Assembly (NCBI GenBank): GCA_015521565.1
Contig: WANX01000124.1
Coordinates: forward strand, 1 to 34,928
DNA: 34,928 nucleotides
Reading direction: 5' to 3'
Source of the DNA: Candidatus Hydrothermarchaeota archaeon
GTDB lineage: Archaea > Hydrothermarchaeota > Hydrothermarchaeia > Hydrothermarchaeales > BMS3B
Shown: piece after piece, positions 2,569-7,766 of the stretch
Layout of the letters: each line of letters begins with the position of its first letter
How positions within the stretch are numbered: position 1 is the first letter of the stretch
Translations under genes and position numbers: made by a program
Notes under the pieces: model-generated
Told to the model about the DNA's origin: nothing
Databases searched by the model: none
What the model saw: only the letters and a program-made list of their open reading frames with translations

Positions 2569-3318
2569 TCATCTTCCCACCTTAACCTCCATGAAGCCAA
2601 AGCCGAGGGAGTTGCGCTCTCCGAAGCCTGCATCGATTGCAAAGCGCAGCAGCTCACGCTGCTCCCCGGTAAGATGCGAAAATCGGAACTCCCACAGTGA
2701 GCCAAACACACGTACCTCGCGGTTTTTAATCAGCAGGTGGTTGCACACCTGCTTCTTGAACAGAAACTCCTGAAAGAGCGGTCGCAGCTGCCCCTCTTCA
2801 ATATCTTCACCATGAAAGCCCCTGTACTTCTTCACCAGGTTGTCCTCAAGCTGGCGCAGGAAGGCGTCGAAGGTCATGTCCGGACGCCAGTAAACATAGC
2901 TGTGTTCGCTGACGATGCCGTACCTCGGGTAGTTCCGCTTCGGAATGCGCACTATTATCGGGGTCCGCGTAACAAGCGTGACTGAGCGCCTGATTTTCGG
3001 GCGCACCACACGAATACCCCTGAGATAGAACCGCATGCTGCCTATGTTAATCTCTTCCCGTGTGAGCAGCGCCTGTGCAAAGGTGCCCACCAGCTTCTCA
3101 TCCGGAGAGGACAGCACCAGCTGACGGCTCTCCCCCTGACGTGTATCGAAGGGCGGGTAGATGTTGGAAAAGCAGAAGTACTTGTAGCCCCTGAGATCGT
3201 GAAGGTGTTCATAGGGGGTGTTTCTCAGCAGAGAATATACAAACCCCTGGAGCTTCACGTGGTATCGCAGGTCATAGGCGTAGTCGCATGCACTTTCAAG
3301 AGTCAGCACCAGGCGCAT
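2569..3318 (-). CDS. cas6: Cas6-family CRISPR RNA endoribonuclease (orphan)
   Basis: A 249-residue RAMP-fold protein. The N-terminal half contains YSLL...HLHDLRGYKYFCFSN, matching the Cas6 active-site region; Tyr28, His40 and Lys46 align with the Tyr/His/Lys triad of Pyrococcus Cas6, including the exact 6-residue His-Lys spacing. The C-terminus has the diagnostic glycine-rich loop DAGFGERNSLGFGFMEV. Cas6 cuts pre-crRNA within repeats. Unusually, no other cas gene and no CRISPR array are in this window; the neighbours are a membrane-protein operon and proS. It may serve an array elsewhere in the genome or be a remnant, although the frame is intact and the active-site residues are present. Confidence 0.9.
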   Translation of the reverse strand: MRLVLTLESACDYAYDLRYHVKLQGFVYSLLRNTPYEHLHDLRGYKYFCFSNIYPPFDTRQGESRQLVLSSPDEKLVGTFAQALLTREEINIGSMRFYLRGIRVVRPKIRRSVTLVTRTPIIVRIPKRNYPRYGIVSEHSYVYWRPDMTFDAFLRQLEDNLVKKYRGFHGEDIEEGQLRPLFQEFLFKKQVCNHLLIKNREVRVFGSLWEFRFSHLTGEQRELLRFAIDAGFGERNSLGFGFMEVKVGR

Positions 3319-5815: not shown

Positions 5816-5831
5816 CTCCTTGCGTGATAGC

Positions 5832-7058
5832 ATGGTTGCGGTGCGGGAGATTGAGCTCAGGGGACACATTATCGACTCCTTTATCCTGCCCAGGGTGTTT
5901 GATACCATAATGGACATGGGTGGCGATTTTGAGGTGCTTCAGTTCGATATAGGAAAGCACAAAACAGACCCAAGCTATGCCAGGATACTGGTAAAGGCAA
6001 AGACCAGAAAGCAGCTGGACGAGATACTGGGGGAGCTGAGAAAAGCGGGTGCACGGGTTCCAGAAGTTGAGGAACTCAGACTTGTACCCGCTCCCAAGGA
6101 CAGAACCCTGCCGGACGGCTTCTACTCCACCACCAATCACCCCACCTATGTTTTTGTAGATGGGGAGTGGGTGGAGGTGGAGAACATTGAAATGGACACA
6201 GCCATTGTGGTGGAACCTGAAAAGAAGCGCGCCTACTGCAAACCCATAAGCGAGATTAAGAAAGGAGACCTCATTGTGGTTGGACAGAGTGGAATTCGCG
6301 TGGAGCCGCCCGAGAGACCAAGAGGATTCTCTGTTTTTGAGTTTATGCGCAGCAGTGTGAGCAGCGAAAAGCCGTCAGAGCCTCTAATAAGAAATATAGC
6401 GGAAGCGATACTCGATGTGAAGCGCTCCGGCAGGAAGGTGCTCGCCGTCGTGGGGCCAGCGGTTGTGCACACCAGCGCCGCACCAGCGCTGGCCAGGATG
6501 ATACGCGATGGCTATATCGATGTGCTTTACGCGGGTAATGCGCTGGCTGTGCATGATATTGAAGCCCAGCTCTTCGGCACATCGCTTGGGATAAACATAA
6601 AAACTGGCAGGCCCGCAGAAGGCGGACACCGCCACCACCTGTATGCGATAAATGAGGTTATGAAGGCGGGAGGAATCGAAGAGCTCGTAAAGCAGGGAAA
6701 GCTTAAGGCCGGAATAATGTACGAGGTTATAAAGAGGGGGATACCCTATGTTCTCGCGGGCTCAATACGCGACGACGGCCCGCTGCCGGAGGTTATAACC
6801 GATGTGCTTGAGGCTCAGCGGGAAATGCGGCGTCACCTGAAGGGTGTGGGACTTGTACTTATGATGTGCACCATGCTGCACAGCATAGCTGTGGGCAACA
6901 TCCTCCCAAGCAGCGTAAAAACCATATGTGTGGACATAAATCCCGCGACGGTTACAAAGCTTACAGACCGCGGTACTGCGCAGGCTCTGGGGATCGTCAC
7001 GGATATAGGAGTATTCCTGCCAATGCTTGCAGATGAACTCCACAGATGCAGCAGATGA
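5832..7058 (+). CDS. LOR/SDH-domain protein, candidate archaeal ornithine cyclodeaminase
   Basis: About 408 residues, matching the standalone archaeal LOR/SDH bifunctional conserved domain family (TIGR00300). Visible blocks are [20 protein letters not shown] near the N-terminus, [20 protein letters not shown] and [20 protein letters not shown] in the Rossmann-like middle, and [18 protein letters not shown] followed by a C-terminal segment. The homologous domain of cyanobacterial AgrE/ArgZ converts ornithine to proline and ammonia, so that activity is the best inference; direct evidence here is family membership only. The frame begins at TTG 5820; ATG 5832 is preferred for promoter spacing. 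The gene is monocistronic and convergent to an RNA gene. Confidence 0.8.
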
Positions 7059-7066
7059 AAATAAGA
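7057..7066 (-). terminator. U-rich end of the structured RNA
   Basis: TCTTATTTTC on the minus strand directly follows the GC-rich closing stem of the RNA gene and abuts the stop of the convergent LOR/SDH gene (7056-7058). T-rich tracts terminate archaeal transcription. Confidence 0.5.
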
Positions 7067-7206
7067 GCGGGCCCGGCAAGACTGAGAGTCAGGTGCTCTT
7101 ACCCTCACGGGTAGAACAGCCTTCCTCTCCCACGGAGCATCCTCAAAGAGGAGTCCGTGCCGGCGTTGCTGCCGAAGCAGCTTGGCCGAGTTCTTACCGA
7201 GCCCGC
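7067..7206 (-). ncRNA. Structured non-coding RNA of unknown family (~140 nt)
   Basis: The gap between two convergent protein genes reads on the minus strand as a compact RNA. The ends pair (GCGGGC, 7206-7201, with GCCCGC, 7072-7067), continued by CGGCCAAG/CUUGCCG. Inside are a hairpin with a C(UUCG)G tetraloop (7168-7181), a hairpin CACGGA/UCCGUG with an inner CCUC-UUU-GAGG stem (7131-7159), and a ~10-bp hairpin closed by a GUGA tetraloop (UGUUCUACCC against GGGU-A-AGAGCA, around 7094-7119). The tetraloops are canonical only on the minus strand. A TATA-like box at 7228-7235 predicts a start at 7205-7206, and UCUUAUUUUC follows the closing stem. It lacks tRNA T-arm, 5S, SRP or RNase P signatures. 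Confidence 0.7.
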
Positions 7207-7227
7207 ATTTTATTATAGGCCCTCATA

Positions 7228-7235
7228 GTATAAAA
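7228..7235 (-). promoter_or_regulatory. TATA-like box of the structured RNA
   Basis: TTTTATAC on the minus strand is centred at 7231.5 with an A-rich stretch upstream (BRE-like). The predicted start, 7205, coincides with the first base pair of the RNA's closing stem. Confidence 0.6.
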
Positions 7236-7271
7236 CATTTTCTATTACCAGAGCTCAGCTTCCTGTGGAAA

Positions 7272-7766
7272 CTAAAAGCTGTCGCCTTTTCTGAAGACGA
7301 AGAGCATGGGCCTTTCCTTATAAACCCTCCAGCCCCTCACAAAAAACTCGTAGCTTGCCACCCTGGCACCTTCACGAAGCTCTTTTTCCAGCATAGGACG
7401 GAGCACCTCGTGCATGTCGAAGTTTAGGTAGAGCGCCACAACGTCGGCGTTTCGCACGACTGTTCTTCCCTTACTCCCCCTGTGCGCCCAGAATCCGGGA
7501 TCGAAGATGTCTCCGTGGATTATCTCCACCTGGCTGGTAAGCCCTCTGCTTTCAACCTCCTCTCTGGCCTGCTTCACCAGCTCTGCTTCCTTCTCGATCC
7601 CTATACATCTTGCTCCGAATTCCTCTGCACCCACTATCAGTATATTACCTCTGCCGCATCCCAGGTCAAAGAGCACCTCACCTTCACCCAGTTCTGCAAG
7701 GGAAAGGAGCTCTCTCGCCTTCTCAGGGGGTGTTGGATGATACGGTACGGAGGGTAGCTCAGTCAT
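7272..7766 (-). CDS. SAM-dependent methyltransferase, aKMT4-like protein-lysine methyltransferase
   Basis: A 164-residue class I methyltransferase. Motif I is VLFDLGCGRGNILI, the acidic loop is GIEKE and IIHGDIF follows. The stretch VPYHPTPPEKARELL before motif I, and YLNFDMHEVLRPMLEKEL followed by GARVASYEFFVRGW, strongly resemble crenarchaeal aKMT4, a broad-specificity protein-lysine methyltransferase related to Dot1. Substrate specificity cannot be read from sequence; other small-molecule or protein methyltransferases remain possible. Start ATG 7766 has GGAGG 8 nt upstream. It is divergent from the small acidic hypothetical gene, with AGGTTA repeats in between. Confidence 0.75.
   Translation of the reverse strand: MTELPSVPYHPTPPEKARELLSLAELGEGEVLFDLGCGRGNILIVGAEEFGARCIGIEKEAELVKQAREEVESRGLTSQVEIIHGDIFDPGFWAHRGSKGRTVVRNADVVALYLNFDMHEVLRPMLEKELREGARVASYEFFVRGWRVYKERPMLFVFRKGDSF

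Follow-up and report, generated by a model that had tools for sequence, protein, structure and literature searches.

A structured RNA of about 140 nt with a four-way junction in Candidatus Hydrothermarchaeota, very likely a previously undescribed archaeal RNA family

A discrete gene for an RNA of about 140 nt, which forms a four-way junction of a closing stem (P1) and three hairpin arms, was found on the minus strand (positions 7206-7063) of a 34,928-nt stretch of DNA, called the window in the following. The host belongs to Ca. Hydrothermarchaeota (Ca. Pyrohabitans). Comparative sequence analysis indicates that this is very likely a real RNA gene and a previously undescribed archaeal family present in several Hydrothermarchaeota genera, because distant relatives among these uncultured archaea of hot vents keep the shape despite greatly changed sequences. 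Using iterated covariance models, one copy per genome was detected in 13 genomes, which represent nine genera and six families of one order. A first-pass annotation of the window had proposed a new archaeal family of structured RNAs of this size with a predicted promoter, and the lack of any Rfam match together with extensive compensatory change bears this out. To our knowledge, few structured RNA families are known in archaea beyond the universal ones, and the uncultured phyla are largely unexplored for RNA.

Fold of the RNA and its conservation in relatives

Folding of the window RNA yielded a minimum free energy (MFE) of -89.1 kcal/mol, compared with -56.4 +/- 4.0 kcal/mol for dinucleotide shuffles (z -8.1, 0/200). 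It was also the most stable among 2,900 tiled stretches of 144 nt from both strands of the window, which had a mean of -42.2 (sd 9.3) and a runner-up of -68.7. The three hairpins that had been read from the sequence by eye were recovered: the C(UUCG)G hairpin is arm 1, the two-part hairpin is arm 2, and the GUGA-capped hairpin is the apical part of arm 3 (Table 1). The pairing of the two ends (GCGGGC/GCCCGC) was found as well, but the length of six base pairs had been underestimated, because the stem consists of 14 continuous pairs and more past one bulge. In total, P1 has a length of 14-17 bp. Among the best-conserved parts is the A/G-rich helix of 6 bp at the base of arm 3, next to which lies an internal loop that is mostly rich in purines. 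The GUGA loop of this arm is not conserved in the relatives, and UUCG is found there in most other genera.

Table 1. Features of the RNA locus (positions in the window)
Feature	Position	Strand	Remarks
GTAATAGAAAA element, BRE-like, just upstream of the TATA box	7238-7248	-	(Near-)invariant in five genus members; present in G005
TATA box TTTATA	7229-7234	-	Begins at -28 relative to the first paired G (7206); slot occupied by TATA-like hexamers in 13 members
RNA proper, four-way junction	7067-7206	-	140 nt, counted between the terminal paired bases; 124-160 nt in relatives; based on fold, homologues and covariation
P1 closing stem, 5' strand	7190-7206	-	Partner is 7082-7067; in the family, 15/18 of its pairs changed on both sides
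Arm 1: stem, A-rich internal loop, stem, C(UUCG)G loop	7160-7189	-	Fold; 11/12 pairs covary
Arm 2: two-part hairpin	7131-7159	-	Fold; 12/13 pairs covary
Arm 3: GAGAG/CUCUC stem, purine-rich internal loop (GAA/UGA), short GG/CC stem, GUGA-capped apical hairpin	7083-7130	-	Fold; 15/17 pairs covary
P1 closing stem, 3' strand	7067-7082	-	Partner is 7206-7190; same covariation basis as the 5' strand
TCTTATTTTCAT, T-rich end, presumed oligo-U terminator	7055-7066	-	Overlaps the stop codon (7056-7058) of the convergent plus-strand gene; T-rich tail in 13/13

BLASTN revealed one copy in each of the four other members of the genus; beyond the genus it yielded only short chance matches and shared pieces of the promoter. 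When named genomes were scanned with a pattern, the RNA's 5' end was recognised in Ca. Pyrohabitans JdFR-16 and JdFR-17, in another Hydrothermarchaeota MAG and in a MAG filed as Euryarchaeota (G001-G004; the window MAG is G000). With a covariance model built from the five genus members (R1) a sixth member was found, G015, which belongs to another family of the order, has a different gene neighbourhood and possesses a TATA-like box and a T-rich end of its own. Its model-free fold gave the same junction, with -85.8 kcal/mol and a z of -8.1 against simple, not dinucleotide, shuffles. Model R2 matched G012 (E 5e-11) and G005 (E 0.001), and model R3 matched G016 (E 1e-11), G014 (9e-11), G011 (5e-10) and G017 (8e-7); none of the latter four had been used in building R3, nor in any model before its discovery.

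Since the reverse complements of members are able to form the same pairs, they score as well, with R1 up to 36 bits and with R2 and R3 about 31 bits; a score near 30 is therefore no proof by itself. G015 and G005, which had first scores of 32 and 27, were accepted on the basis of their promoters, ends and folds and of shared loop sequence. The weakly scoring G018 was accepted via its stem ends GCGAGTC/GACTCGC, which were identified by eye, and via a neighbour shared with G014, a gene head-to-head with the RNA in both genomes that we take by eye to be JAB-like. A stretch in G007:C152 (L050:1375-1522) was rejected; at the 3' end it is similar to the G005 RNA (95% over 20 nt), but it showed no convincing family fold and no clear promoter, and it is possibly a decayed copy. 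A pattern match in a Streptomyces contig was presumed to be due to chance.

When six members were aligned, 97.4% of the cells paired and 22 of 60 pairs showed changes on both sides. The larger alignment A12 comprised 12 of the 13 members as unaltered sequence; the training rows of alignment A10 had been hand-aligned with N padding, and those of G012 and G005 had been slightly abridged. Standard pairs made up 93.3% of the pair cells of A12, and compensatory changes were present in 53 of the 60 pairs, with 166 cells changed on both sides (0/500 shuffles), counts that lean towards the model because A12 was fitted to it. The homologue search thus turned up compensatory change on an extensive scale among the relatives. 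The covariation score was 0.654, compared with 0.245 +/- 0.016 after shuffling, a control that keeps the relatedness among the five genus members, and with at most 0.144 when the partners were slid. As an independent check, each of the 12 members (without G018) was folded alone, and each MFE structure was a P1-closed junction with three arms; arm details varied in G011 and G017.

Strand, transcription signals and gene neighbourhood

The assignment of the RNA to the minus strand agrees with an excess of G-U over A-C cells in the paired columns in this sense (74 versus 12), and in 13/13 members the energy was lower than that of the reverse complement. The TATA-like box that had been noted to place the start at the first paired base has counterparts in the family. 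The distance from the start of the hexamer to the first paired G is 23-31 nt (28-31 nt in 12 of the 13 members); summed over all 13, the slot scored 72, compared with 53.9 +/- 2.8 in shuffled sequences (0/2000). The U-rich tract that had been described after the last pair likewise recurs as a T-rich stretch in every member. No conserved reading frame was detected in the 13 members, in line with the earlier reading, and stops were scattered over different frames in different members. Transcription of the RNA is predicted from these signals. An element similar to GTAATAGAAAA was also found at L048:1501-1529 (G007:C9:2059-2087), before an unrelated A+T-rich stretch. As it occurs in G007 without the RNA, GTAATAGAAAA was regarded as a promoter element and not as a signature of the RNA, and its recurrence suggests that it is a common promoter element in the family.

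Two genes flank the RNA, one for a protein-lysine-methyltransferase-like protein (7272-7766, minus strand) and, with its 3' end, a convergent one for ornithine cyclodeaminase (5820-7058, plus strand). The neighbours are alike across the genus and differ between genera, which argues for a free-standing and probably trans-acting RNA. One gene that recurs in three families is presumably bioY (identified by eye); it is convergent with and adjoins the RNA in G012 and G016, and it lies just past a HEAT-repeat-like gene in G011. This proximity is probably just old synteny, and old synteny despite changing neighbours fits the vertical descent of a trans-acting gene. Behind bioY, a biotin-protein-ligase-like ORF was seen by eye in G012 and G016 (L044, L053). 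Elsewhere in the window, a Cas6 gene is encoded at 2569-3318 on the minus strand (TIGR01877, E 5e-31), and the first 5 kb contained no CRISPR-like repeat array.

Convergent genes end within 6 nt of the RNA 3' end in G000, G001, G014 and G016. This arrangement would suit a cis element, either an insulating or 3'-end structure where two genes converge or an antisense RNA to the 3' end of the convergent gene. Such a role is nevertheless highly improbable, because no convergent gene follows the RNA in G005, G011 and G018, a TATA-like box is present in all members, and the whole junction covaries. The least probable explanation of all, to which we give hardly any credence, is a MITE-like inverted-repeat mobile element. 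It would account for the long terminal inverted repeat, but it is contradicted by a distribution that is single-copy and syntenic, with one copy per genome, synteny throughout the genus and proximity to bioY in three families. Moreover, the internal hairpins covary, and a target-site duplication was not seen in the inspected flanks.

Distribution and possible function

Searches with R2 and R3 did not reveal the RNA in three class-level relatives, and R3 with permissive filters gave no match in 38 archaea from outside the phylum. R3 also found nothing outside the phylum among 394 genomes, which is a weak negative result, because the stricter filters used there also lost G014, G016 and G017. No copy was present in a scan of viral contigs or in the bioY neighbourhoods of seven genomes without RNA synteny. 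For the sister genus g3, about nine tenths of genome G006 (99% complete) were read; a descriptor that recovers the loci of 12/13 members gave nothing credible over 1.26 Mb, and R3 gave nothing over 1.21 Mb. Not being detected outside the phylum or in G006, the RNA looks lineage-specific and patchy, and it would thus have been lost, or have diverged past recognition, in parts of the family. That it was not found in G006 counts against the scaffold role favoured below, as an indispensable housekeeping RNA should be present there unless it has diverged. The first-pass annotation had also considered a lineage-specific regulatory RNA; the restriction to one order stands as far as seen, while the regulatory part found no support.

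The most likely role is that of a protein-binding scaffold RNA, to which we assign about an even chance. Its own archaeal promoter would start transcription at, or within 1-2 bases of, the first paired G, and the oligo-U tract just past the last paired base would end it, giving an RNA of about 145 nt. This RNA would fold to the closed four-way junction of P1 and three arms and would act in trans as the RNA component of a ribonucleoprotein. At least one protein would bind the purine-rich internal loops in arms 1 and 3, which the rigid junction and the long P1 would display, so that the RNA would serve as a scaffold and not as a base-pairing guide. Closed ends and few free single strands would confer stability at high temperature. 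However, the candidate protein-binding loops vary between families (GAA/AGA-type, AA/AA, CAAA/CAAA), so that no single recognition motif is evident, which counts against a scaffold. It is tempting to speculate that the RNA forms the core of a novel Hydrothermarchaeota ribonucleoprotein machine, ancestral to the order and additional to the ribosome, SRP, RNase P and modification-guide RNPs; we regard this wider proposal as unlikely. If it were correct, a protein-RNA machine would have been overlooked in the phylum.

Next after the scaffold comes a protein-sequestering regulatory RNA similar to 6S, CsrB or Y RNA, which would titrate a regulator, a polymerase or an RNA-binding protein instead of being a permanent part of an RNP. 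The same anatomy would be expected, i.e., a highly structured, closed, free-standing, lineage-specific and patchy RNA. We nevertheless consider it rather doubtful, because by inspection neither a repeated binding motif of the CsrB type nor an open promoter-like bubble of the 6S type was present.

Base-pairing RNAs are the commonest small RNAs of archaea, and an antisense or sRNA regulator or a modification guide (C/D, H/ACA) therefore had to be considered. The longest unpaired run is at most 5 nt in the MFE folds of 12/13 members, and with almost nothing unpaired a guide or antisense RNA is quite improbable. As to C/D box sRNAs, a C box (RUGAUGA) was found in 0/13 members and D boxes had no consistent placement; as to H/ACA sRNAs, the 3' ends are mostly GC-NCUU and an ACA box was found there in 0/13. 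The internal loop of arm 3, judged by eye, appears mostly symmetric in the predicted folds, unlike a kink-turn.

The hairpin ribozyme is built in a similar way, on a rigid four-way junction in which two arms bear internal loops, and this likeness would fit a ribozyme or self-processing RNA. Such an activity is very unlikely, slightly more so than a base-pairing RNA, because the internal loops lack invariant nucleotides, the loop-bearing arms are not adjacent in the junction, and no Rfam ribozyme matched except for a chance match to Pistol in one member (E 2.6).

Comparison with known RNA families

The Rfam scan for a known family gave no match at gathering level for the window RNA and only chance matches up to E = 10; with the 4,227 models of Rfam 15, no relation was found for the window copy or for eight further loci from members of eight other genera. 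HgcC, HgcE, HgcF, HgcG and SscA did not match up to E 10 (window, L033, L044, L045) or up to E 5 (L053-L057). That no tRNA, 5S, SRP or RNase P signature is recognisable was confirmed. ARAGORN and Rfam detected no tRNA or tmRNA in the window RNA. The archaeal SRP RNA model (RF01857) did not match it, and true SRP RNAs were located elsewhere in 15/17 genomes, including separate genes in all four other genus members; in the window MAG itself the SRP RNA was undetected, most likely due to an assembly gap. The true RNase P RNA gene (RF00373) lies at G000:C42:5387-5700 (195.8 bits). 5S rRNA (RF00001) did not match, and the RNA has a four-way instead of a three-way junction; in G011 a separate 5S gene is located 0.7 kb from the RNA. 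This 5S rRNA gene is accompanied by two long tRNA matches of 126 and 137 nt, which presumably contain introns, and all three are located immediately upstream of the RNA on contig G011:C68 (L055:1-800). A riboswitch or leader was rejected, because the genes that lie downstream are convergent, or else not related from one genus to the next.

The archaeal SRP and RNase P RNAs are likewise structured and promoter-driven, as housekeeping RNAs, but are separate genes. The Y RNAs, partners of Ro60, likewise have ends that pair to a long closing stem, with folded modules on top. The bulged helix is the Ro-binding motif of Y RNAs, but a conserved helix of this kind was not seen in the window RNA, and no Y RNA model of Rfam matched. 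Two further structured RNAs whose function is unclear, HgcC and sscA, come from hyperthermophilic archaea. HgcC occurs in several copies in Thermococcus kodakarensis and is partly located within transposase genes, and sscA of this species resides in a 5'-UTR (PMC4247193); in contrast, the window RNA is single-copy and intergenic, has its own predicted promoter and matches neither model. A close parallel is offered by the orphan structured ncRNA families of Rfam that were discovered by comparative genomics (e.g., PMC2864571), which are likewise free-standing, lineage-restricted, supported by covariation and orphan in function. The window RNA differs from them in showing no relation to any model and in being restricted, as far as seen, to a single archaeal order. 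Precedents thus exist for orphan structured RNAs as such, and the novelty lies at the level of the RNA family. With the alignment, the gene can be found in other genomes and in metatranscriptomes, and the compact junction is well suited to structure determination.
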